Source: Saururus chinensis (taxonomy: Eukaryota; Streptophyta; Magnoliopsida; Piperales; Saururaceae). Taken from it: a stretch of DNA of 64,000 bases. Positions 6,049 to 64,000 of the stretch are shown one piece after another. The stretch covers positions 27,572,756 to 27,636,755 of the forward strand of contig CP141147.1 in the NCBI GenBank assembly GCA_035235625.1, in the 5' to 3' direction. The notes under the pieces are model-generated. The model searched no databases. It saw only the letters and a program-made list of their open reading frames with translations, and had not been told where the DNA came from. Both the position numbers and the translations under genes were made by a program. Numbering within the stretch: the stretch's first letter is position 1; each line of letters begins with the position of its first letter.

Positions 6049-7319
6049 TGTAAGAACTCTTATTTTGAACCAACTTACTTTCAATTTTATTTATTATTTA
6101 ATCATCATTATGCGATTCAAGCTATTTCTGATTAATTTTGATAATTTTTAGAAATAAAGGTGATTGCTAAAGGTTTTAAATAAAAATAACTTCATATTTA
6201 CAAGTTTTAAGTGAATCTAAACCATTTATGAATTTTTAGATTTTTTACAAATTTCTCAAAAATTAGGGTTTCGTGGGACCCCCCCTGTGGGCCCCACGGT
6301 CGAATTTGGGGGTTTTAGTCCAAAATGTCCCATACATCAAAGCAAGTCATTACAAAAAAAAATTAGATTTTTTCTAGTCCAAATTAGAGTTTAAATGGCC
6401 AAAAATACCTATTTTTAGTTAAATATTTTATTCTCACTCTAAGTTTTAATTAGATATAGTTCATTCTTTCCTATAAAATAAAAGAGGCTAACCTTTTCCC
6501 ATTTGGGAAAGGGCTGAGCCAGAGAATCAGGAGCCTAATCCCTAATTAGGCCCAAAAAGAAAGTAATTAGAGGTAATATTTCCTTAATTATTGCTTAATC
6601 ATTACAGTTTTCTTAAACTCCTCTTAATCTTATCTTCCTCCATTGATTCTGTCACGCCCCGGCGATGCCCAACCCGAGCCGAACCCGGTCCAGGGGCCGG
6701 TCAAGCGCGCGGGGGCGACGAAGTGAAATTGAGAAAAGATCTAGCAGAAGACTTAACCCTAACCACGGGCGATTTAACAGAATTACGGAGTACGCACAAT
6801 CCTTTGAGCAAGAGTAAATAAGAAGGAAGAAAGAGAGTTGTTTATCACAAAGTAAACAACCAATCTCAAACCCACATACATAGTTAACTAAAGCCCACAC
6901 TGGCTCAAATAAGTCTTAAGCAAACATAACTATAAAATGTGACATAAATCCAAAACAAAGAACCCTACACAAAGGTTCTAACATAAAGCATAAAACCAAA
7001 GAAGATAAGTCACACAACGATCTCCATGATCACATCCTAGCCATCTCCGACCTTTCCTCAAAGAGGAGATCTTGTCCGTCTGCGTGTCACGCAGCCCCAA
7101 ATCAAAATACAAGAAAGAGGGGTGAGTTTAACAAACTCAGCAATGGTTTTTAATATCACTATCAACATCGAAAATACGATAGCATAGCAATATAAATATT
7201 CCGATCAAAGATTAACATGGTGCATCATTTTCTGATCACACATACACATCACCTAAAAACTGCATCATAGTGCATAATCCACATAATTTCATTCTCATCA
7301 TAATCACCCTGCATGAAAT

Positions 7320-7750
7320 GTATCTCTAACATACATATTCTATCATGCATCACATCAAAATCAACCTGCATGGATGTATCTCTAACATACATATTCCCAC
7401 ATGCATTATATCATAATCAACCTGCATGGATGTATCTCTAACATACATATTCCCACATGTGTCATATCATACTCAACCTGCATGAATGTATCTCTAACAT
7501 ATATATTCTATCATGCATCACATCATAATCAACCTACATGAATGTATCTCTAACATACATATTCCATCATGCATCACATCATAATCAACTTGCATGAATG
7601 TATCTCTAACATACGTATTTCATCATGCATCATATCATAATCAACCTGCATGAATGTATCTCTAACATACGTATTTCATCATGCATCATATCATAATTAA
7701 CCTGCATGAATGTATCTCTAACATACATATTTCATTATGCATAATATCAT
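7320..7750. repeat. 56-bp minisatellite inside alpha LTR copy 2
   Basis: About eight units containing TGTATCTCTAACATACATAT. Unit starts at 7367, 7423 and 7479 give a 56-bp period. The repeat is much degraded in plus-strand alpha copies 1, 3 and 4. Confidence 0.9.
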
Positions 7751-8989
7751 AACATCCTCCATCAAGGAGTAATCACAAATTGGTGTCACACAGACGGGAA
7801 CATAGACAAGGCCACGAAGGCGTGTCATAGTCCAAAATTCTACACAAGAATTCAAGAAAAATCGGGGTTGTCAATCCCTAAAGATCTGCTCACCCTGGAC
7901 GATCCTAGCCAAGGATGTCCATTCTCACACAGAGAATCTAGAGCAGGGGTGTTCGCCCAGGGACATCTCCTGCGGAGGGAAAAGCCCGAGTTCTCACACA
8001 GAGAACCCTAGAACACGTGGTAGCGGGTGCACGTGGCATACCACACTGGATTCTCAGGGTCCAGATGACACTCATAATAGCATTCTCACAATCCGCAAGA
8101 CAAGTACACAACTCGTCCCCACATAATTCCATTCAACTAGACTCAACCCGGGGAGTGCACTCGTTCCACACAGGAACTCAAATCAAAATATGTCCTTTCG
8201 GACCAATCAACTTACGATTAATCCACGATCGATCAATCCAGCACACAATTTCACCACATTGCATCCAATCGGTCAAATTCGATTAACCTCGATGATGCCT
8301 CAATTGGAAATCTATTTTCATGATGCATACAACATGGTACATATGTGGGCAAGGCATACATGAATCTTAATCCATGATAAGTGTTTTCATTAGCCCCTAA
8401 TGCATCATTCATAATCACAATATCAAGCTTCAACATCATCATTTAACCCCCACATGTGTGTGTGTAACTAGTAGAAGCACTCCACACAATGCATGCCAAC
8501 ATGCTTGAAATTAAACTCACTACCACACTACACATGTGAATTACCATCTAAACATGAATTCCAGTGGAAATCATAGGAGAAGAATCGTCGAAATCATAAC
8601 TCAAATCAAAACTCAACCACAAAGGTTAAACACATATAAGATCATTCATTTCATCATTGAGTCATGACATTCACCAACATCCACACATCAACTAACTACA
8701 TTCTATCATGACAAATCAGTCCATTAATAGGTTGTAGTTCTACTGAAAATATGCTTAATCAAAGGGAATCAACCATTCATAATTCCAAGATGACAATTCC
8801 AACATCATGTCACAAAACATAAGTCATTCCACAAATCTCTAAGCATATATCTCAACTCCATAACCTCAATAGTATGCCTTTCCAGTAGCATAATATAGCT
8901 TAAAACACTCCACATTCATATGAAATTGGCAAGCTAAAGTGGAATCGTCAAAATAAACATCATGCAATAGAACACAAATCTGCTGTGTA

Positions 8990-23918: not shown

Positions 23919-26900
23919 TGTCACGACCCGGATTTTTAAAAGCATTTTTAAATAGCACGAACAGTAAGTAGTGAGAAATTTTTTTTTCTTTAAATACAAA
24001 CAAACCATTTGATTAAATATCCAGGTCATGATAATTGGGATTCACAAATACAAATATCAAATCATACGATATTATTAACGTCTGAAAATTCATAAAGACC
24101 AGCTCATCCATCTAAGTACAAGTTCATCGCCCGTCTAAAAATAAATAATAAGTTGACTCTCACACTTAAGGTACACTTACGTACCGGAGTTACAGAAACG
24201 TGGAGACCTCTTGTGCACACCTGCCTTGGTCTCACTTTTCGTCAACTGGAGAATCTGCAACAAAGCAAACCAAACAACAACCACAATGGAGCATCTCCAC
24301 CTATAGGAGAAGAGCTTCCAAAGGACAAAAGGTTTTATTAATATTATTCGGATCGGGCCAACATCACCCGATGTTAGTTGCCTATGTACTCATTAGACAA
24401 CATCTCCAATGTTTCCAACAAGATCAGATCCAGACGTAGTTCTGCCTAATACTACACTATACTAAGAAGCATAGCATCACATATGCAATGCTTAAGTATT
24501 TTCAAGCAACCTACATTTTATGCAAGTCCTTTAATCATTCCACTTGTTCTAATTAAACAAGCAATATCAATCAATGTTATTAATTATTTCTTGAACCATT
24601 GTTCGATAATTAATATCCATGTCTAATCCCAATGATAGATAGACTCATCAGATGTCAACCTAAGTGACAAATGACAACGAAACACCCTGGAATCCACCAG
24701 GCCCCTGGAATCCACCAGGAAGTGCCATCTCCCAACCTAGCCCATAAGGACCTGACCAGAGTGGATTCGATAATTAATATCCATGTTTAATCCCAATGAC
24801 AGACAAACTCATTAGATGTCAACCTAAGTGACAAATGACAACGAAACATCCTGGAATCCACCAGGCCCCTGGAATCCACCAGGAAGTGCCATCTCCCAAC
24901 CTAGCCCATAAGGACCTGACTGGAGTGGAAAGGCATGGCCCACAACTGCACCTAAACAGAAGTGGTCAGAGACGCCAACCAAGCAGGATGTCAGCGACCC
25001 TAATTGCGTGTACACTAAAAGATCCTCAATAGATCTGGGGTGAGCCCGGCTCACAAAAAACTCCCTCCAATGGGGAGGTGCAACTACACGGTCAAATCAG
25101 CGGCTCCTCATTAGAGCTAAAACTCAGGAAACCATTCTGAACCCTATCTTGCTTATCTATAAGCCAGGATTCCGAATGACTATCCCAAACCCTATTAGTC
25201 CCTTCTAGACTAAGGTTTACAACTCGAGACATGTCATCGGTTCATCAACCAAGGCAAATTGTCAAGTCAAAGGCTTTGTTCACTGTATGAACTAGTCCCA
25301 GACCCCTCTGAGGTATTTTAGTCTTTATCTTGATTAGGTGTTCTCGCCTAATCCAAAGCTATCAAACCCCATTAATTAATCTTTCAATAATCTTAAGATA
25401 GTGATAAATTACTATTACAACATCAATATCAAAAATCAAAACAAATAACAACATAAACCATAAGAACTATACAGGTTCAAGCAAATCATAATATCAATAA
25501 TAAAATTCATTAATAATATCATAATTATTCGAGCTCTCGTGCCCTAACCCTCCTTAGGTTAGCTTATTAATCTTAGTAAAACTAGTCATAATGCACCTAA
25601 GGGCATTAGCATAATTATCCAACATTGGATACAGTCATCTCTCCACTTGAGTAAGTCTTTAACCTCTCAAAAGATTTCAGTATCACATTGGCCCATTAAC
25701 AACATCCACGCAAATGCGGGCCAGTTTGCATAGGGGTATTTCTGTCATTTGGTTTAAAACATTAATGACATCCAATGGGACCAAAATTAAACTCAAGGGT
25801 ACTACTTGACTTCATGGACCCTGTGTAATTTTTCTGGCATGTGACGGGGTTGTGAACCCCTTGAACCGACCCAGGTTGTCTTAACGGTTTACTATAAACC
25901 CTAAGGGTAAAATGGTCAATTAACCACTCATTGGTATTTTTATTCATCAAGATATTTGGCCTATAAATATTTTACCCATTAAAATCTCATTGAGAATTTT
26001 CTCAATTTTTAAATAAACTCCTAGGCCCCTGAACCAAGGCCCCGAAGTCGGGCAAATGGTTCTCACACAATGATTTTAACTATCAAGGGTAAAAAGGTTA
26101 TTTCACAATCTCTAGGATTTTTCCCCAATCTAAAACTCGGTCAGAATAGTCCCAAACCTCTCCAGGTCCAATAGTAATTTTCTAGGATTTGTTGGACACA
26201 ATTAACCCCCTAAACCAGACCCGGTTCACTCCCTTCTCTCTTCTTCTTCTCTCTCTTTTTTTTACCGACCCGGACCAGGTCGGTTTGGGTTGACGACCCG
26301 CAATGCAGGTCGTCTTCCCCGCGTCCGGCCAGAGGCGTTTCGGCCTCTGGCGCCACCGCCCGCTACCACGACGAAGGGATGGCGGCTCACCGGTTTTCCG
26401 ACCACTGGTACACGGCAGAACCGATGACGTCGGTCCCTCCGCCATCCAGTAGCCGGACGGTGGCCAAAACCGCCACTTTCCCCTACTGTCACCTTTTTTT
26501 TTATCAGACGGCAAAGCCGCCGTGGCCAGGCCAGCGCAGCCCAGGCTGGTGCGTCCAGGGTCGTCGTGGCCTGGGCCAGCGCGACCACCGCCACGGCCGG
26601 CACGGCCTCGGCCAGTGCGGCCAGCGACAGTGTCTCGCTGTTGTTGTTTTTTTTTATTACTGTGCGCCAACGGCAGAAGCCGCCGCCACCAAGTATCCCT
26701 GGTCGCCGCGGCCATGGCCAGAACCGGCACGCCGTTCCAGCCATGGGTCCAGCCACCAGCGGTCGGCTGGTCGGCAGATGAACAATAAATAAATAACTAA
26801 AAAAAAACTGCATGAATAGTTTTTGCAGATATTACTGTTAATGTCAATTACGAATATGGTTTATCTTCTAATTTACAAATCTATGCAAATCTCGACTTGA

Positions 26901-31042: not shown

Positions 31043-32299
31043 CTAGAGAGCAGATGCGGCTAACAGGGCCCACGAGCAGACGATGGCGGCGGCTCCGGCG
31101 GCGGATTTGGACAACGACGGCGCGGACGACGGTGGGCTGACAATGTCGGCCGCGGAGGCTCCCGACGGAGACATATCTGGGGATGGCGTTGCTGGGGCTG
31201 GGGGCGAGGAGGGCTCCACTGGGGAGGGCGCAGCCGAAGGAGTGGTGGTTGGAGTTGCGGCGGGAGACGGTGTCGGGGAGGACTCTGGGACCGGTGCCGG
31301 TGCTGGGGACGGGGTGGCGGCGAAGAGCTCCGGGGGGAGGAGGAGGCTGTCGACGGTGCACATGAAGACGGGAGGGATGTCCACGACGGGGCTGGCGACG
31401 CGGGAGCTTACGACGCCGGTGTGAAGGGTGACGTCGTCGCCCGCGGCGGTGGCGCGGAGCTCGTACTTGGCGGCGCCGTTGGAAGCGAGGGTGGAGAAGG
31501 GCTTAGCGCCGGCGGTCTTGAGGGTGCCGGTGGGGTTGTAGCCGGGAGTAGCATGGTAGAGGAGCAGCGCCACCCGGTCAGCATTGCTGAGCTTGCTCAC
31601 GTCCGGCACGCCGGCCGCTTTGAACGCCTCGTCGTTGGGGGCGAAGATGGTGAGCCCCTTGTCCATGGCAGCACGGTACATCTTGAGGACACCATTATCA
31701 ACCAGAAGCGCGGCGAAGGTCTTGCATCCGGCCTTTTCGAGGGCGGCAGTCAGGTTGAGATCAGCCGCGGAGGGGGCGGGGGCGGTGAGGAGGCCGGGGG
31801 CGACGATGGGGGCGCTGATCTGGAGGACGGAGATGTTGTAGGGGATCTGCTTGACGGACTTGGTGAAGGTGGAGGCGAGGGGAGAGCCAGGGGCGGCGGA
31901 GCCAAAGCCCACCTTACCGCCCTTGAGGTCGGTGATGTTGACGAAACCCAGGTTGCCGGGGACCTTGCCGGTGGTCTGGTAGAGGGTGGTGGAGAGCGTG
32001 GTGCCGTCGGAGATGTCGTGGAGCTTGGCGGGGTCGAAGTAGTCGAGGAGGATGAGGAGGCTAAGGGCGGACTTGACGACCGAAAGCGGGTGCTTGGAGG
32101 CGAGGGCAGACATGGCGGCATTGTCGAGGACGAGCACGGTGATGGTCTGGCGGACGTTGACCTCGTCGTCCAGCCTGGTCTGGGAGAGGTAGCTTCTGTA
32201 CTCGCTGTACTCGGGGAAGGGAGCGAGTATCTCGGTGATGTTGTGAGCGGCGGCGCCGGCGGCCAAGAGGAGGAGTACGAAGAGGGAGGCGGCGGCCAT
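31043..32299 (-). CDS. FLA: Fasciclin-like arabinogalactan protein (FLA), two-domain type
   Basis: A complete, single-exon, 418-residue protein, as is usual for plant FLAs. Residues 1-18 form a signal peptide (hydrophobic core [11 protein letters not shown], cleavage after AAA before HNITEIL). A first fasciclin domain spans about 19-170, with the H1-like [15 protein letters not shown] (52-66) and [14 protein letters not shown] (120-133). A second spans about 185-325, with [15 protein letters not shown] (216-230) and [10 protein letters not shown]-glycosylation sequons are at N20, N121, N155 and N182. Residues 329-392 are a Pro/Ala/Ser/Thr-rich stretch full of SP, AP and TP dipeptides, the substrate for proline hydroxylation and arabinogalactan addition. 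The C-terminal hydrophobic tail (about 399-418) after small residues predicts a GPI anchor, so the mature protein should sit on the outer plasma-membrane face or in the wall. The order matches the FLA1/FLA2/FLA8/FLA10 group, with roles in adhesion and wall assembly. The exact orthologue is uncertain. The start is the only Met before the signal peptide. Codon use is extremely GC-rich, giving long shadow ORFs on the other strand. Confidence 0.93.
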
Positions 32300-32480
32300 G
32301 GCTGGAACTCGGGGCAGTGGGTGGAGGTGTGGGGAGTGACTAGAGAGTAGGGAGGGAGTGTGAGGAGAAGAGTAGGGGAAGAAGGAGGTTGGGTTAGATG
32401 TTAACCATGGTTAGGTTGAGATGGGTTGTGGGCACGTGATGGACTGCCATGAGTTGGGGCACAGCTGGAAAATAAAAGGG
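32300..32480 (-). promoter_or_regulatory. FLA upstream region with G-box and AC-like elements
   Basis: Reading toward the gene (minus strand), a CACGTG G-box (32434-32439) is followed by CAACCTAACC and AACCCAACCTCC, which resemble MYB-bound AC elements of wall-related genes. A pyrimidine-rich stretch (CCTCCTTCTTCCCC) lies about 70-90 bp before the ATG, as in many plant core promoters. Motif matches are by eye only. Confidence 0.4.
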
Positions 32481-35699: not shown

Positions 35700-36998
35700 C
35701 TTGTCTCTCAAGCATCCCTACTACCCTTAGGTACTAGTGACACATATAGACAAGTCTTTAGGTAGTAGCGACGCATATGGCCAAGCGTAAGTAGTAGCAA
35801 TGCTTCAAAGTACGCGTCGCTACCATTTTTTAAAAAAAAATTAAATAATTTATAATTAAAATATCTTTCTCTCTTCTCACACACTCACTCTCTCTTCGTC
35901 ACTTTCTCTCTTCTCTCTCTCTTCCCTCTCTCCCTTCTTCTCTCTCTTCTCTCTCTCTCTCTCCTCTCTCTCCCCTCTTTCCCTCTCCTCTCTCTCTCCC
36001 CTCTTTCCCTCTCCTCTCTCTCCCCTCTTTCCCTCTCTCTCTCTCTCTCTCTCCCTCCCCCTCCTCTCTCTCTCCTCTTTCCCTCTCCTCTCTCTCTCCC
36101 TCCCCTCTCTCTCTCCCTCTCTTCTCTCCCTTTAGGTAGTAGCAACGCTTCAAAGTATGCGTCACTACTATTATTTTTTAAATTTTTTTTAAAATAAATT
36201 ATAATTAAAATATCTCTCTCCTCACTCTCTCTCTACACTCACTCTCTCTTCCTCACTTTCTCTCTTCTCTCTCTCTATTCTCCTTCTCTCTCTTCTCTCT
36301 CTCTCTCTCCTCTCTCTCCCCTCATTCCCTCTCCCTCTCTTCTCTCCCACCTTCCCTCACTCTTCTCTCTCTCTCACTCTCTCTCTACCCTCTTTCTCTC
36401 TCCCTCACCCTCTCTCTCTACCCTCTATTATTAAAACTACATTTTATTAAAAATTTAATATTTATTTATTATATATACAAATAGTAAATAATTAATATAT
36501 TTAGAAAGTTTATTTTTACTTTTGTTTAATATTTATTTGTTATATAATTATTGATTAAATAAAATTAATTAAAAAAGCTAATAGCGACATATGTCGACAA
36601 GTGTCGCTATTAGTAATACTATTTGCGACGCATATTTATAGGCATCGCTAATAGTTATAAATTTTTATTTGTTTCATTTAAAATTTATTACTATTAGTGA
36701 CGCTTTTATTAAGTGTTGCTAATAATATATGTATTAGCGACGCTTAAGAAAAAATGTCGCCAATAGTTATGAATTTTTTTTCTTTTTTTTAGAAATGTAC
36801 ACCTTTTAGTGACGCTTTTGAAGTAAGCATCGCTAGTAGTTTTTGTATTAGTGACGCTTTAAGCTAAGTGTCGCTAATGCGTGGCTATTAGCGACACATA
36901 ATATTACGTCACTAATAGTGATTTTTTGTTAGTTTTTAGCAACGTTTGTGTATGGGTCACCAATAAATGCGTCGCTAATAGTTAGTTTTGTTGTAGTG
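35700..36998. mobile_element. CACTA (En/Spm) element remnant with intact right end
   Basis: The right end reads TTTTGTTGTAGTG at 36986-36998, i.e. CACTACAACAAAA reversed, the hallmark CACTA terminus. The adjoining 400 bp carry many subterminal repeats built on TTAGCGACGC/GCGTCGCTAA in both orientations. Similar motifs (GTAGTAGCGACGCAT, AAAGTACGCGTCGCTACC) occur at 35740-35830 and 36130-36175. A matching left CACTA terminus was not found, so the left boundary is approximate. No transposase is present. Confidence 0.75.
35810..36430. repeat. Duplicated CT-rich microsatellite block within the CACTA element
   Basis: Two tandem units of about 300 bp, each with a GCGTC-type subterminal motif, then AATTATAATTAAAATATCT, CACTCACTCTCTCTTC and a long (CT)n/(CCTCTC)n tract. 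The reverse-strand Arg/Glu/Gly-rich reading frames are low-complexity artefacts. Confidence 0.75.
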
Positions 36999-42938: not shown

Positions 42939-45900
42939 TGTCACGCCCCGGCGATGCCCGACCCGAGCCGAACCTGGTCCAGGGGCCGGTCAAGCGCGCG
43001 GGGGCGACGAAGTGAAAATTGAGAAATGATCTAGCGGAAGACTTAATCCCTAACCACGGGAGATTAATAGAAACACGGAGTGCGCACAATCCTTTGAGCA
43101 AGAGTAAATAAAAGGGAAGAAAATGTGTTGCTTATCACAAAGTAAACAACAATCTCAAACCCACAAGCTTAGTTAAGTAAAGCCCACACCGGCTCAAAAT
43201 AAGTCATAAGCATCACAACTGCAAAATACGACATGAATCCAAGACAAGAACCCTACACAAAGGTTCGAACATAAAGCATGAAACAAACGCAGGTAAGTCA
43301 CGCAACGATCTCCATCATCACACCCAAGCTACCTCTGACCTTTCCTCATAGAGGCAATCCTGTCCGTCTGCGTGTCGCACCACGCAGCCCCAAATCAAAA
43401 CACAAAAGAGGGGTGAGTTTTAACACTCAGCAATGGTTTTAATATCACTGTCAACGTAGAAAATATGATAGCTTAGAAATGAGATCGTTCAGATCAAAGA
43501 TTTACATAGTGCATCACTTTCTGATCACACATTCATATCACCCAACACGTCATCATAATGCATAATTCAATCTGCATTGATGTATCTCTAACATACATAT
43601 TCCCACATGCATTCACATCATAACCAATCCCGCATGGATGTATCTCTAACATACAAATTCCCACATGCATAACATCAAAATCAACATGCATGGATGTATC
43701 TCTAGCATACATATTCCCACATGCATTCACATGATAACCAATCCCGCATGGATGTATATCTAACATATATATTCCCACATGCATAACATCAAAATCAACA
43801 TGCATGGATGTATCTCTAACATACATATTCCACATGCATAGTATCAAATCAAACTCCATCAAGGAGTAACCACACAATAATGTCACACAGACGGGAGCAT
43901 AGACAAGGCCACAAAGGCGTGTCATGGTCCAAAATTTCTACACAAGAATTCAAAAAAGATCGGGGTTGTCAATCCCTAATACTGCTCGCCCTGGACGATC
44001 CTGGCCAAGGATGTCCCATTCTCACACAGAGAATCTAGAGCAGGGGTGTTCGCCCAGGGACATCTCCTGCGGAGGGAAGAGCCCGAGTTCTCACACAGAG
44101 AACCCTAGAACACGTGGTAGCGGGGTGCACACGGCATACCACACTGGATTCTCAGGGTCCAGATGACACACATAATAACATTCTCACATATCCGCAAGAC
44201 AAGTACACAACTCGTCCCCACATCATTCCATTAAACAAGACTCAACCCGGGGAGTGCACTCGTTCCACACAGGAACTTCAAGTCGTTCCACATAGGAACT
44301 TCAAATCAAAATATGTCCTTTCGGACCAATCAACTTGCGATTAATTCACGACCGATCAATCCGGCACACAATTCCATCACATTGCATCCAATCGGTCAAA
44401 TTCGATTAATCACGATGAAGCCTCAATTGGAAATCCATTTTTATGATGCGTGCAGCATGGTACATGCGTGGGCAAAGCATACATGAATCCTAATCCATCA
44501 GCCCCTAATGCATCATTCCTACTCACAATGTCAAGCTTCAACATCATCATTTAACCCCCACATGTGTGTGTGTATAACTAGTAGAAGCCTTTCACATAAT
44601 GCATATCAACATGCTTGAAAATCAACTCACTACCACACTACACATGTGAATTTCTATCTAAACATGAATTCCAGCAGAAATCATAGTAGAAGAATCATTG
44701 AAATCATAGCTAAATTCAAAACTCAACCACAAAGGCTAAACACATATAACATCACTCATTTCATCATTGAGTCATGACATTCACCAACATTCACACACCA
44801 CTAACCACAATCTATCATGACAAATCAGTCCAACAATGATTGTAGTCCTATTGAAAATATATGTTTAACCAAAGAGAAATAATCATTCATAATTTCAAGA
44901 TAACGATTCCAACATCATGCCACAAAGCATAAGTCATTCCACGATCTCTAAGCATATATCTCAACTCCATAAACTCAATAGCATGCATTTCCAGTAGCCT
45001 AACATAGCTTAAAATACTCCACATTCATATAAAATTGGCAAGCTAAAGTGGAATCATCAAAATAGACATCATATGCACAACATACAATTTCCTGTGTAGG
45101 CGATCGATCGCCCTTTAGGCCGTTCGATCGGTTACACACAAAAATTTGAAATTTACAGTTCAGCCGATCGATTGCCCTGCAAGGCCGATCGATCGCCAAC
45201 ACGGCAGAATAGTCATCTTCTTCCTTTCGCAAAATCAAACCGAAACACCATAGATAACACTTCAAATCCACATCTAACACCCTAATCATCATCAAAAGTC
45301 CTCCTTGACTTCCAGAATATCAAACCAAACCATAATAATACAAAACCCTAAGAAATCGGGATTAAATAATTTCATTTTCTAATCTTACCATTAACACACT
45401 AAATCAAGCAAACCATTTCGAAATAAGCCAAAAATGAAGAGTTTTACCATGGATAAACAGAGATTTCGAAGACCCATTACCTCAGCACTTGATTAAGCTC
45501 GGATTGAAGAGTCACCCTTCTTGAAATCCTTGAAAACACAATGAGTTTGAATTAAACTCTAATAGAAATCGATTTACCCAAGAAATCCCTAATTAAATCT
45601 TAGATCTAGGGCTTGTTGGTAGTAAAAATCGAATTTTGAATGTTAGGGTTTGTAGTAAAACACAAATCAGTAGCTTTTGATGGTCAAAAACGAATTGAAT
45701 CAAGGGAAAAATGGTAGATTTGGAAGAAATTAAGAGAAAAGCCATATATTAGTGCTTAATTAGAGCAAGCTTACCTTAATCGACTTCTAATTCGGGCCTA
45801 AGTGGGGATTAGGCCAGCCCTCCTTCCTTAGCCTATTCCCAAAAATGGAAATGGCTCTGGTTTGCCCTTTTATAGTAAGGGTTGGGGTAGGCATAGGTAA

Positions 45901-55305: not shown

Positions 55306-57451
55306 ATGGCAACAGAGAAAACGGCCATGAAACCATCTTCTCCAAGCACTCCGGGCGGCCATTTTGTGGACATCCACCCCGTCGTCCCTGAGGAGGAGCC
55401 GGCGGGCGGAGATGATCATGGGAGACTATTGAACAGGCCCATCAGGCTCAGGGACCAGAGGAGGCCACAGAGGAGCTTCAGCCGGCAGGTTTCCCTCGAG
55501 ACCGGGTTCTCGGCTCTTGACAGGGAGTCCAAAGCCGGCAAGGATGAGAAGAGGGTGCTCTCAAGGAGTGGGAAGAGCTTCGGGGGTTATGCTTCGGCCA
55601 ATAGAGGAATTGGGGAAGGGAGAAAGGGTGATTTCAGTATATTTAGAACAAAATCCACCATTAGCAAGCAAAACTCTATGTTACCCATCAGAAAGGAGGC
55701 TGAGATGGACGCAGTGAGGCCAGAAGGACTGGGTTCTTTGGATGAGTCTGTTGGACAAAGCGTTCCTAATGCTGGCCGCTACTTTGCTGCTCTCAGAGGA
55801 CCCGAACTAGACCAAATCAAGGTATTTAAGATATGCAGTATTCAGATGATCAAAGTTCTATGTATTGTATGTTTGCTATAATCAAATTGTTGATTATCAT
55901 TGTCTTATTTATAAACCACTTTACCGGCGGTTTGATAACTTTTAACGTCAGTTTGGTTACTTTTAGCGGCGGTTCTGAGTTGTGTGCACCACCATTTGTC
56001 CCCTAATATTATTGCCATGCAAGACCTGTTACAAGTTCTGAAGATTAAGACAGCTTATTTGATGGATAGATTAACAAACTTTAGATTGTAAAAATTGAAC
56101 ATGTTTAAGAATCAGAAAAGTCCTTTTTATAGTGATAATTCGATCAGTGATTTCTTTTGTTTTGCATAGGATTCAGAAGACATTCTGTTGCCGAAAGATG
56201 AGCTATGGCCATTCCTTCTGAGGTTCCCAATAGGCTGCTTCGGTATATGCCTGGGCCTGAGTAGCCAGGCCATACTTTGGGGCACCCTCGCCACCAGCCC
56301 GGCCACCGGCTTCCTCCACATCCCCCCCATCATCAACCTCGTCCTCTGGCACCTCGCCGTCGCCGTCCTCCTCTGTGTCGCCGCCACCTATGCGCTCAAG
56401 TGCGCCTTCTACTTGGAGGCCGTCCGGCGGGAGTACTACCACCCTGTCAGGATCAACTTCTTCTTCGCGCCGTGGATCGTCTGCATGTTTCTCTCCATCG
56501 GGGTGCCGCCGGCGCTGGTACCCGACCAACGCCTGCACCCGGCCATCTGGTGCGCGTTCATGGCGCCGGTGTTCTTCCTCGAGCTCAAGATATACGGCGA
56601 GTGGCTCTCTGGGGGGAGGAGGCGGCTGTCCAAGGTGGCCAACCCTTCCTCCCATCTCTCGGTGGTAGGGAACTTCGTTGGGGCGATCCTGGCTGCCAAG
56701 GTGGGGTGGATGGAGCCGGCCAAGTTCTTCTGGGCGGTGGGGTTCGCCCACTACCTGGTGGTGTTCGTGACATTGTACCAGAGACTTCCCTCCAGTGAGG
56801 CCCTGCCCAAGGAGTTACACCCCGTGTACTCGATGTTCATCGCCGCCCCCTCTGCCGCGAGCGTCGCCTGGAACGCCATCTACGGAGAGTTTGATGGGCT
56901 GGCCCGGACATGCTACTTCATTGCCTTGTTCCTCTATCTCTCGCTCGTGGTCCGCGTCAACTTCTTCTGGGGCTTCAGGTTTGTTGTCAACGAAACTTGA
57001 GTTATATCGAATTCCATCTAATCTTTGAAAGCTATTTACATGTTGCAAAAATTGGAGTTGCAGGTTTTCTGTGGCCTGGTGGTCCTACACCTTCCCCATG
57101 ACGACGGCCTCCCTGGCGACGATCAAGTACGCAGAGCAAGAGCCATGCGTGATAAGCAAAGGGCTGGCCCTGACGCTGTCTCTCATGTCCTCCACCATGG
57201 TCTGTGTCTTGTTCGTCTCCACGCTCCTCCACGCCTTCGTGTGGAGGTCTCTCTTCCCCAACGACCTCGCCATCGCCATCACCAAGAAGAAGATTATGCA
57301 CGGCAAGGAGAAGAAGGGCTTCAAGAAGCCCTACGACATTCGCCGGTGGACGAAACAATCCCCTCTCTCACTCGTTTCTTCCATTGCCAAGGGCAGCAAC
57401 AGAGGCAGCAAGGAGCAGGAGCTTTCCGGGAACAATGAATCAGCCTCCTAA
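55306..57451 (+). CDS. SLAC1: S-type (slow) anion channel SLAC1
   Basis: A three-exon gene: 55306-55821, 56170-56978 and 57064-57451 (junctions AAG|GTATTT, CATAG|GATTC, TTCAG|GTTTG, TGCAG|GTTTT). The product has 570 residues, against 556 for Arabidopsis SLAC1 as I recall it. It is a plasma-membrane anion channel of guard cells that releases chloride and nitrate during ABA- and CO2-triggered stomatal closure. The cytosolic N-terminus (1-185) contains RQVSLETGFS (S63), RSGKSFGG and STISKQNS (S124), matching the S59 and S120 kinase sites of the Arabidopsis channel targeted by OST1 and calcium-dependent kinases. The TehA/SLAC1 fold follows with LRFPIGCFGICLGLSSQA (188-205), EYYHPVRINFFFAPW and GNFVGAILAAKVGW. 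The pore-gating phenylalanine equivalent to F450 is F452 in WWSYTFPMT, encoded by exon 3. The C-terminus ends PYDIRRWTK and a Ser-rich tail. Exon 2 is strongly GC-rich while the introns are AT-rich, as often in monocots. No sign of damage. The ATG chosen is the first in frame with the conserved N-terminus. Confidence 0.95.
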
Positions 57452-59495: not shown

Positions 59496-62400
59496 CTACA
59501 AAGAATGGTGAGTTTCCTGGTGAAGGTCATCGAATGCCAAAGATTCTGCAATTCAAAACACCTTGATGAGTTTTAGGATATTGCAAAAGTAAATGCATTT
59601 TTTAGTGTAGATGTGTTTATATTTAAGATGCACTCTGCCAACTTGATTTGAGCTCTGAAACTACTCAATAATGTTCTTTCTCAAGAATGCAAATTTCCTG
59701 GTTGTGAAAAACCGCCTTACATAGAACTAAAAAATTCAACACAGGCGGTCAACTTTATGAAAACTGCTGTATTTATTTTATATATGTTCGGCTAATTAAA
59801 TACTCCTAAATTAATAGCTCCATTTGATTTTTCAAATGAGTTCATTTTAAAAAACTAAATGAAGCTATTAATGTATGATGGAAGGAGTACGTATTTGAGC
59901 TATATGTACAACTAATGTGGATTTTGTATATTGAATTAAAATAAATCTTCATTTGAGCTATATCATGCTCTGGTTTCTACAGTAGCCATATCATGCTATG
60001 GTTTCTACAGTAGCTATATCATGCTATGGTTTCTAGAGTAGCTATGACAGCAATTTTCTTGGCTTAACGAAAATTGTAGCAAAAGTGCGCTTCATGATTT
60101 TTGTTATTATACATGTAGAACAAATGTGAATTTATATATGTTGAGCTAAATAAATCTGCATTTGAGCTATATCATTCAATGGATTCTACAGTAGCTAAGA
60201 TATTAATTATCTTGGCTTAATATTATGTAGAATTAATATTATCATTCAATGGATTCTTTCATATTGTTAACAAGATGCTTGTAGATTTCGATGATAAAAT
60301 AAAATATTACCTGCACATATTTTCTCGAGATCTATTTTCTATCAAAGTTCTATTATTCCCATGTGTGTTTGTAATGTTCCTCCCATGACCTTGCATTGGG
60401 GCCCGGCTTGAGTGTAAGCCCTGAAAAATGTAACTCGTCAAAAAACCGTCCTACACAAGTGGAAAGATGTTAGGACATTACTTATTCTTCAAGTAACTTG
60501 CCTTGAATTCTTGCTGTGAGGAATCAGATATATTTTCCTTGGAGACCTTATAAAAGATGAAAACAACTTGTGAGAAAAGTTGAAAACAAAAAATGCAAGT
60601 CCTGAGGTATTGAGGAATTGAAACCTTAACAGGTGTGCGAGGTGGCCGAAATATCTTTGGCTCGGAGCTAATAGTGTGCTTAATGTCTGACGTCAGTGAC
60701 AGCTGATAAAGTTGAAAGGAAAAGGCAAATCAACTACGATTGTTATACATCTATGCCAATAAATGCAGCAATTCAACTTAGTATGCATTAAAATACTGTC
60801 TAATGCTGACGACAATGAGAATATTGCTGTCAAGATAACTAAAGCCACTGTAACCAGAATATGAATGTGTTTCCGTCTATCTAAGCCAGGAATAGATATG
60901 ATATTAATGGCTTTCCAAACAATCTTAATGACAAGTGATGGGTACAAGTGATGATTCTGCCATATATATACTGGATTAGACACAAGCAAGATACAATCAG
61001 AAGCACAAATAACTAGGACTATTTTTGATTAATTCTTATAATACTGGAAATTTCTCCCTTACAGCACATGGCCCTTTGTTGTTCCCAATATCAATATACA
61101 AATTCTTTTGCTTACCTTACTGAAGAGTTCAGTCGGTGGATTTTGCTGAAATCTTTTATCAGTTGAAAAACTGAATGCCTGTGAGGTAGATAAAGCAAAA
61201 TGTTAGAACAATAAAATTCTACTTAGAAATATAAACCACCACCCACATCCGATAAAAGTGATGAGTACCACAGGTGTTGTTAGTTGAGGCTTGCTTGTTA
61301 CAAACACACCCATATCCCCTTTGCTCAAAAAAATCTGCACTATAACAAAAGCCTACATATGTTATGCTGTGATCTAAACAATTGGAGAATAAACAATATT
61401 TACCACACATGACCTTCTGGTTGAGGGGCCGAGCTTTAAATTTATGTGCAGTTCCATCACATTCATGTTCTTGATGTTCTCTGAATTTAGGTCCAGTTAT
61501 ACCAATGACAAAAGGGTATAATATCCAGTGAGACATGTAAAGGTATAATAAGGCAAAAACATTATAGAAGAAAGAAACCACAGTAAAGAAAAATTGAAAC
61601 TGAGATAAAATTTAATGCTCTCCTAGAAGAATGCCCACAGATGGCACTCATGAATTATCAATTGGATGAAAAGCTAATGGATAACAAGAATCTAGAAGTT
61701 ATGCCATGTCAAATATTAAGACTAGGGATGCTCCATTTTTATTGGGAAGATGCTACAGCATATTCACACAAAAATGAAGAACTCAAGACTTTTTATTTTA
61801 TTCCAAAAGATATAAAAGAAAAAAAAAATTATATTTTTTCGTTCAGATTTACCTTTGAGATTGGGTGGGTGGACACTGGAGCTTCTTTGAATCTACAGCA
61901 CTACTTTGACCAAAATTAGTAGTCCTTTCCTTTTGTACAACCTAAACAAAAGAATAATATAAATCGGATTAATGACCAATAATTAGCCTTGGTGTTGAAT
62001 AATCAGGTTTTATGTTCTTGGCCGTGCAAGACTTTATTGACTCTCATCCATGTTGATAACCTAATTGCACCTGATGAAACTACGATAATAACTACTTCTA
62101 TTTGAGCTATAATAAATTCTTTAATTCTTTTCGTCCATCTCAATTTAAATTGGTTATTTAAGATAATAAAGAATTTGTCACTTACAATGAAAACATAAAG
62201 TAAGATATAAAATAATAATTGAAATCATGAAATAATTGGAAGGAATGAGCAATACTGGATCCCCATAAAACAGCAGTGAAAATTGTCTAAAAGTTGCTAT
62301 AGTTTTTCTTAAGAACAATAACTAATGGGTGAGTTACATGATTAATCGTTTTTCCAGCCAAGTATGTCGAAGAGGCAGCAGAAATATGTTGCATGGCCCT

Positions 62401-64000
62401 CTCTGATGTCTTCAAGCTAAACTCCTGGACATATATGAAAATCTGATTTAGTCTAAAATAGCTCTATGCAATTTGACAGAAATCATGAAATAATTGGAAG
62501 GAATGAGCAATACTGGATCCTCCACAAAAAAGCAATGAAAATTGTCTAAAAGTTGCATAGTTAGTTTTTCTTAAGAACAATAACTAATGGATGAGTTACA
62601 TGATTAATCGTTTTTCCAGCCAAGTATGTCGAAGAGGCAGCAGAAATATGTTGCATAGCCCTCTCTGATGTCTTCAAGCTAAACTCCTGGACATATATGA
62701 AAATCTGATTATAGTCTAAAATAGCTCTATGCAATTTGACAGAAACAAAATGCATACTTCTAACTACTTACTTGAAAGACAGGTAATTGTGGAGTGCTTT
62801 TTTGGCGGAGTGGAATAGAAGGCGCCTCAAAAATCTGCAGACAATATAAAGCAAATGTAGTAAAAAAAATATCTTGTTAGTGTCATATTTACAATTTAAA
62901 AATTAGATTCACAGGAACTAGTTACCAACTTTTCGGTTCAAAGGTCGTGCTCTGAACATCTGTGTGCTGCGAGGAGCATGGTCTGCTAAATCTGTCCCAT
63001 GCTTGGGCCTGGAACATTAAATTAGAATAAGCAAAATTTCATACGTTACGATCACTCTTGTCATTGAAAAATATCTCTACCTCATTTTTTGTGCCCTTTG
63101 AGCTGTTACCAATTCTGGTTCTCTTGGAATTGTGAGTTTCCGCCTTGAAAGTTCAGAGTGACCATCAGTGGGCATGTTCTGCATTTAATTGAATTGTTAC
63201 ACCAAAGCTTCTATAGCATATGGGGAGAATGTATGAAACACAGGTAAGAAAAAAGAAGAAACAGTGTTACTAGTATTAAGGGAACCAGACGTGTTTCTGG
63301 TAGTTATTACCTTCCTTGAAACCTTGTGTGCCAGATTAGACTGCTGCTGCATGTGAAGTACCTGGCATGAAAGAAAGGGGACTACTTAGTCAAACTAGAC
63401 AAAGAGTAGCAATGAAAGAAATCGAGCATCTAAAAGTGTCAAAAGCAGTCTAACCCAGATCTCACACCACCTTGCAAAGCAAGCCACCGTCCAACTTTTG
63501 CCTCTTGGAAGCTTGATTCTCAGAAACAGTTGGTTTCTCCAGGATTTGCCCAGCTTTCAAAGCCAGCGGCTGGTCAAATCTAGAAAACAAAGGATCATAT
63601 AACCTAAGTCACTTTGGCAAAGAGTATGATAGAAAAATAAAATGATGGAATCAAATCACAAGATTATGAGGTAATAACAGGCGATAGTTATTACTGCTTT
63701 TGACAGAGTTGTGCTAAAGATAGAAAAAGTTTAAAATTGCACCACATTCTATCCAGCAGATTATTGCTAGCACATGAAGCAGACAAATTTGCCAAATCGG
63801 GGGTGTCTATAATGCTTCTTAGAAGATGAAATTTACATATAGAATATCACCCAACCAAATCTGACCAAGATTAGTTCCAGATCTTGTCTTAATATATAAA
63901 AATATGTATAAGGTTTGGTAGAGTTATGGCGAATTTTAACTTCTGAAAGGTAGCTATCTGTTCTTCTTCTCCAAATACTGAATGTAACTTAAAATCTGAC
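59496..64000 (-). CDS. TPX2: TPX2-family spindle assembly protein, 3' part (TPX2-like)
   Basis: Fifteen exons read leftward on the minus strand: 63471-63579, 63311-63361, 63081-63178, 62930-63008, 62772-62834, 62600-62686, 62338-62424, 61853-61941, 61414-61480, 61269-61334, 61116-61178, 60631-60702, 60502-60546, 60390-60420 and 59496-59545 (stop). Together they give about 351 residues; the 5' exons lie beyond the window. Landmarks in order: KRQKLDGG, KLTIPREPELVTAQRAQKMR, FRARPLNRK, APSIPLRQKSTPQLPVFQ, EFSLKTSERAMQH, FKARPLNQKIFLSKGDMGVF, FSTDKRFQQNPPTELFSKLS. These are the central importin-binding/TPX2 motifs of plant TPX2, which nucleates spindle microtubules and activates Aurora kinase. 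It ends without the C-terminal FQLESLVRHEE-type TPX2 domain, as in the shorter TPXL2/TPXL3 group, so that assignment is likely but inferred. The 87-bp exon 6 occurs twice in frame. The intron after 60502 has a GC donor (AAG|GCAAGT). The last two exons are less certain. Confidence 0.85.
59803..59887. mobile_element. Stowaway MITE (85 bp) in a TPX2-like intron
   Basis: TA on both sides. CTCCTAAATTAATAGCTCCA pairs with the right end CTCCTTCCATCATACATTAA (reverse-complemented), followed by TAGCTTCATTTAG. It lies within the last intron of the TPX2-like gene. Confidence 0.75.
59959..60042. repeat. 28-bp tandem repeat, three units
   Basis: Units starting TATATCATGC/CATATCATGC at 59959, 59987 and 60015, containing TGGTTTCTACAGTAGC. 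A more diverged copy lies near 60165-60197. It is intronic in the TPX2-like gene. Confidence 0.85.
62221..62748. repeat. Tandem duplication carrying exon 6 of the TPX2-like gene
   Basis: Units 62221-62478 and 62479-62748 both start GAAATCATGAAATAATTGG and run in parallel with few differences. Each contains the complete 87-bp exon with its acceptor (TATATGTCCAG) and donor (CAT|GTAACTCA). The two exon copies encode the same 29 residues; the one base difference seen is synonymous (GCT/GCC, Ala). Both exon ends are phase 0, so inclusion of both keeps the frame. Confidence 0.9.

Follow-up and report, generated by a model that had tools for sequence, protein, structure and literature searches.

A probably young in-frame tandem duplication of a TPX2_importin exon in a TPXL2/3-like gene of Saururus chinensis

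The window analyzed here, a stretch of 64,000 nucleotides from the genome of Saururus chinensis (contig CP141147.1, hereafter C8), contains on its minus strand a TPX2-like gene that runs past the window edge. We modelled this gene manually, guided by its open frames and splice signals and including 10 kb past that edge (locus L003), and obtained 16 exons between an ATG at extended coordinate 66555 and a TAA at 60478 (Table 1). All introns (15/15) are of the GT-AG type, the phases are consistent and the frame is open from end to end, giving a predicted protein of 463 residues with both copies of a duplicated exon and 434 residues with one. About 3.5 kb past the 3' end of this gene an open frame on the plus strand (56170-57000) contains a SLAC1 anion-channel domain (PF03595, 112 bits). 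Further away, a 455-residue open frame on the minus strand (31043-32410) matches the fasciclin domain (PF02469, 68 bits) in two stretches, and by its pattern the product is presumably a fasciclin-like arabinogalactan protein. The window also contains a long imperfect TC-rich microsatellite region (35864-36419) and two minisatellites with units of 56-58 bp (7297-7752 and 43567-43852), which lie 36 kb apart and have consensuses that look related, with CATACATATTCC and CATGCAT present in both.

Table 1. Features of the TPX2-like gene and of the tandem duplication, in transcript order
Feature	Positions	Strand	Basis
Exon 1	66555-66378, extended coordinates (L003), outside window	-	
Exon 2	65733-65659, extended coordinates (L003), outside window	-	
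Exon 3	64571-64403, extended coordinates (L003), outside window	-	
Exon 4: ENQASKRQKLDGG	63471..63579	-	
Exon 5	63311..63361	-	
Exon 6: KLTIPREPELVTAQR; PF12214 match begins here	63081..63178	-	
Exon 7: terminates in FRARPLNRK	62930..63008	-	
Exon 8: 63 bp, phase 0-0, IFEAPSIPLRQKSTPQLPVFQ	62772..62834	-	
TTTC at the upstream end of the duplication, 4-bp microhomology; TTTC also closes each copy	62742..62745	-	
Tandem copy 1, the earlier one in the transcript: exon 9 between an intron tail and an intron head	62479..62745	-	Repeat call and alignment
Exon 9: 87 bp, phase 0-0, EFSLKTSERAMQHISAASSTYLAGKTINH	62600..62686	-	
Intron between the copies: 175 bp, made by the duplication	62425..62599	-	
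Tandem copy 2, the later one in the transcript: exon 10 between an intron tail and an intron head	62221..62478	-	Repeat call and alignment
Exon 10, duplicate: 87 bp, phase 0-0, peptide as exon 9	62338..62424	-	
Exon 11: phase 0 in	61853..61941	-	
Exon 12: second FKARPLNQK	61414..61480	-	
Exon 13: 63 bp, phase 0-0	61272..61334	-	
Exon 14: AFSFSTDKRFQQ, phase 0-0	61116..61178	-	
Exon 15	60625..60702	-	
Exon 16: inferred last exon, TAA stop; least certain exon, picked by acceptor and frame alone	60478..60513	-	
Exon blocks with common plan (FKARPLNxK or FRARPLNxK, 63-bp exon, F.x.T..R)	61116-61480 and 62600-63008		

Within the window, Tandem Repeats Finder reported 62221-62745 as a two-copy head-to-tail repeat with a period of 262 (2.0 copies, 96% matches, score 972). 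The original prediction had placed a tandem duplication here, with its end at 62748, 3 bases beyond the one we find. As the gene lies on the minus strand, the transcript passes through 62479-62745 before it reaches 62221-62478. When the copies are aligned, 253 of the 258 paired bases are identical; internal indels (4 events) account for 5 more bases, and at one end 4 bases have no partner. This similarity far exceeds chance, and the description of the event as recent and in-frame is supported. The intron parts account for 4 substitutions and 4 indels over 171 bp, of which all 4 substitutions and 3 of the 4 indels lie downstream of the exon, the 54 bases ahead of it being nearly identical (one inserted base), while the sole difference between the exon parts is a silent change in an alanine codon, GCT in exon 9 and GCC in exon 10. 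Exons 9 and 10 therefore encode the same 29 residues, EFSLKTSERAMQHISAASSTYLAGKTINH, and both are bounded by the same acceptor (atatgtccag/GAG) and donor (CAT/gtaact), so that the predicted pair of 87-bp phase 0-0 exons with identical peptides and intact splice sites is indeed present. In a comparison of the exon flanks (40 bases before and 20 after) the only differences were at donor position +9 and one insertion about 25 bases upstream of the acceptor; among the donors of the gene this one is not the closest to the usual consensus. In the whole 516-Mb genome a 528-base query spanning the repeat recovered only itself, and the 29-residue peptide at E of 10 or below matched only the two tandem places, both searches scoring only the best candidates from an initial look.

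To the family profile PF12214 (TPX2_importin) the 463-residue two-copy model scores 136.8 bits, the Pfam cut-off being 29.5 bits, and partial proteins score 142.8 bits with two copies and 135.5 with one. The duplicated exon with the 6 residues before and 5 after it matches positions 65-90 of the profile (E 6e-5, 23.8 bits), by itself below the family cut-off. Positions 41-89 align with a piece made up of the last part of exon 7 plus exons 8-9, and positions 99-131 with the next piece, which joins the last part of exon 12, exon 13 and a single residue of exon 14. These scores support the suspected relationship to TPX2. The C-terminal TPX2 domain (PF06886) gave no match in the 463-residue model at E of 10 or below, and of the 10 matches to it in a genome-wide search at E of 1 or below, 7 of them above the cut-off, none lies at this locus. 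Two of the ten, one above the cut-off, fall on a gene on contig C3 (about 49451400-49456500), in which PF12214 scores 58.5 bits for the best exon and PF06886 33.5 bits; since both domains are matched, it looks like the canonical TPX2. The canonical label considered for the C8 gene was accordingly dropped, as it lacks the C-terminal domain and the C3 gene fits the label better. In a pairwise comparison the N-terminus of the C8 protein shows 49% identity over 41 residues to that of the C3 protein; going by the role described in PMC7139753, this region may be Aurora-binding. The TPX2-like proteins of Arabidopsis are divided in PMC7139753 into group A, with Aurora-binding and importin domains (TPXL2, 3, 4 and 8), and group B. 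The presence of PF12214 and the absence of PF06886 fit a TPXL2/3-type (group A) paralogue for the C8 gene. In the C3 gene a 63-bp exon, whose peptide ends in PQIPEFQ, precedes a single 78-bp exon of phase 0-0, EFQLKTTERAAIHAAKMPSSLSTSSE, and in TBLASTX both C8 copies pair with this latter exon. Against PDB sequences the C3 paralogue matches the TPX2 of 6bjc_T at 2.7e-7, in a patchy alignment of three pieces, and the C8 segment has no match at E of 10 or below.

The PF12214 profile likewise contains the segment once (positions ~71-90), and with the single exon of the C3 paralogue this makes one copy the most likely ancestral state. The upstream flank of the repeat reads ...TTTTGTTTC followed by TGTCAAATTG, and the junction between the copies ...CATGATTTC followed by TGTCAAATTG; as TTTC is common to flank and junction, a tandem duplication driven by this 4-bp microhomology would be the natural reading. 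The intronic substitutions amount to 4/171 sites, or 2.3% (95% range 0.6-6.0%), so that the central age, if substitution rates between 4.5e-9 and 1.5e-8 per site per year are assumed, comes to about 0.8-2.6 million years, and the extremes to 0.2 and 6.7 million years. As an assembly artefact the repeat would consist of two alleles, or a mis-joined read, placed head to tail, and the 2-4% divergence of the copies would also fit two alleles of a heterozygous plant. However, the copies adjoin exactly, and the 4 bases that the junction has in common with the flank are probably too short for an assembler overlap; this, together with the divergence of the copies, makes an artefact unlikely. The assembly moreover consists of 11 contigs for 516 Mb, and comparable two-copy duplications occur elsewhere in it (as seen in the assembly), so that the present one is no lone anomaly; we regard an artefact as very improbable. 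Slightly less improbable, but still remote, is an older duplication with its copies held similar by gene conversion. The concentration of differences in the downstream intron part, against one substitution in the exon and one insertion in the preceding 54 bases, speaks for such conversion, but this clustering is based on 9 events, the intron parts align over their full length with few differences, and paralogue and family profile each hold the exon or segment once.

The 144 kb covered by the analysis yielded 4 two-copy tandem duplications that are 100 bp or longer. Two of them lie in the window and have periods no shorter than 100 and matches of 95% or more, namely the TPXL exon repeat and 24602-24929 (period 164, 95% matches). 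Also in the window are a third two-copy duplication with 82% matches (874-1164) and a 114-bp period that is part of a shorter-unit array (43573-43839). Among 17 other loci of the same genome (79867 bases), searched with a higher score threshold than the window, two more were found that have fewer than 2.6 copies and a period of 100 or longer; as 3 of the 17 are neighboring C2 glucanase genes, these loci are not all independent of one another. Inside the C3 canonical TPX2 gene, between two exon-like stretches and so probably in an intron, there is a 114-bp two-copy duplication in tandem with 100% matches (L009:6282-6515). At about one duplication per 36 kb small exons will be caught now and then; one hitting a small symmetrical exon is not extraordinary, and the event is of a known kind. 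Among the papers listed in literature searches, judged by titles and abstract openings, none deals with exon duplication in TPX2 or in a TPXL gene.

The duplicated exon comes after FRARPLNRK and a 63-bp exon, and begins with EFSLKTSERA. In PMC7551519 the repeat unit of TPX2 consists of a ridge-like loop, a charged helix and an FKA+/-PxP loop, and PF12214 corresponds to human repeats 3-6; the ridge (300-311) and wedge (323-341) that contact tubulin in cryo-EM (PMC5679754) are there assigned to repeat 2. We therefore rejected an identification of the exon, which lies in the PF12214 region, with that ridge or wedge, and it is probably an element of the central repeats rather than a known tubulin contact. 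The helix-forming binding segment of the original prediction remains a conjecture; by position and pattern the exon carries a ridge-like F-polar-hydrophobic motif in the importin-domain region. According to PMC12012799, TPXL3 is essential in Arabidopsis and required for spindle building, and its mitotic function needs the Aurora-, microtubule- and importin-binding parts, not the C-terminal part; microtubule binding is ascribed to domain II, importin binding to domain IV and nuclear localization to domains III and IV. Hence, with the duplicated exon in the importin part by Pfam and TPXL3 microtubule binding in domain II rather than IV, any effect of the extra segment would be likelier on importin binding or nuclear import than directly on microtubules.

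The gene also displays signs of an older repeat plan. Exons 12-14 mirror exons 7-9: in the one block an exon that closes with FKARPLNQK is followed by a phase 0-0 exon of 63 bp and then by F.F.T..R, and in the other the elements are FRARPLNRK, 63 bp and F..L.T..R, in the same order and phases and with middle exons of equal size. A piece running from the last part of exon 7 through exon 8 into the first 20 residues of exon 9 aligns to the last part of exon 12 with exons 13-14 at z = 6.3 (0/2000 shuffles); once the ten residues of FKARP are removed z falls to 2.4, reached by 30/2000 shuffles, so that the older repeat rests mostly on FKARP and the matching exon plan. This plan is not fully common to the C3 TPX2, in which the counterparts of exons 13 and 14 are in one exon. 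The two blocks perhaps derive from an ancient exon-block duplication. That the new copy is likewise part of a TPX2-type repeat array that is lengthening one exon at a time in a mitotic Aurora activator, with both copies in the protein and selectively kept, we consider distinctly unlikely. In favor of the use of the second copy, there are in the duplicated exon no nonsynonymous changes and no indels, against about 1.6 and 2.0 expected at the intronic rate (joint P 0.027 if the rate is treated as known and 0.051 if the counts are conditioned on, both calculated post hoc); over all events, 8/171 intronic against 1/87 exonic, Fisher's P is 0.28. This signal of exon constraint is weak, and with the differences concentrated in the downstream intron part the cleanness of the exon could also be due to gene conversion or to locally differing rates.

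We consider it rather probable that this is a genuine young duplication born of microhomology, with both exons in most transcripts and a near-neutral product of 463 residues. On this reading a tandem duplication at the 4-bp microhomology would have copied exon 9 with parts of both flanking introns of a TPXL2/3-type gene, and because the copy carried its own acceptor and donor in phase 0-0, the spliceosome most likely takes both exons; with moderate confidence we treat their joint inclusion as the default. The predicted product would have the 29-residue piece of TPX2_importin, which holds a ridge-like motif and may include the beginning of a helix, twice in succession. As the region is probably disordered and already repetitive, the extra piece is likely to be tolerated and nearly neutral in effect; it may slightly shift importin binding or nuclear import, or, less likely, microtubule binding. 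The same symmetry means that the frame survives skipping of either exon, and a real duplication whose transcripts usually contain one copy, by alternative skipping or mutual exclusion, so that the ancestral 434-residue protein is mostly made, appears unlikely, though by no means far-fetched. In PMC2674458 tandem exon duplication is cited as a source of alternative splicing, and about 38-43% of the splice patterns that remove a domain in three plants are reported to delete a tandem-repeat unit. But the splice motifs of exons 9 and 10 are alike, and the 175-bp intron between them exceeds 8 of the 14 other introns (those eight being 72-132 bp), so that a steric bar to the use of both is not evident. 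Mutually exclusive use is possible, though nothing found argues in its favor, and as both exons encode the same peptide an exclusive choice would bring no gain.

If both exons are used, as we favor, the gene would offer a natural test of one added ridge-like segment in a TPXL protein and would illustrate, at an early stage, a way in which TPX2 proteins may have gained their repeats; with a single exon in use it would be an ordinary duplication within a gene. Annotation of the locus should admit both isoforms. In kind the event does not differ from tandem exon duplication (Kondrashov and Koonin 2001, as referenced in PMC2674458): adjacent frame-symmetrical copies of an exon with their splice sites and frame kept lie in one gene, in this case not yet diverged in peptide. 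With the canonical plant TPX2 represented by the C3 paralogue the gene shares the order of motifs and the preceding 63-bp exon, whereas the paralogue has one 78-bp exon in place of two and retains the C-terminal PF06886. Arabidopsis TPXL2 and TPXL3, compared by their descriptions in PMC7139753 and PMC12012799, resemble the predicted protein in a putative Aurora-binding-like N-terminus and in TPX2_importin without the C-terminal Xklp2/TPX2 domain, and differ from it in that the importin-domain exon is here doubled. Finally, the EFSL..T..R of exons 9 and 10 resembles the ridge-like pattern of the TPX2 repeat units, as described in PMC7551519 and PMC5679754, but lacks the proline of the published PF+/-O pattern and sits in the PF12214 region.
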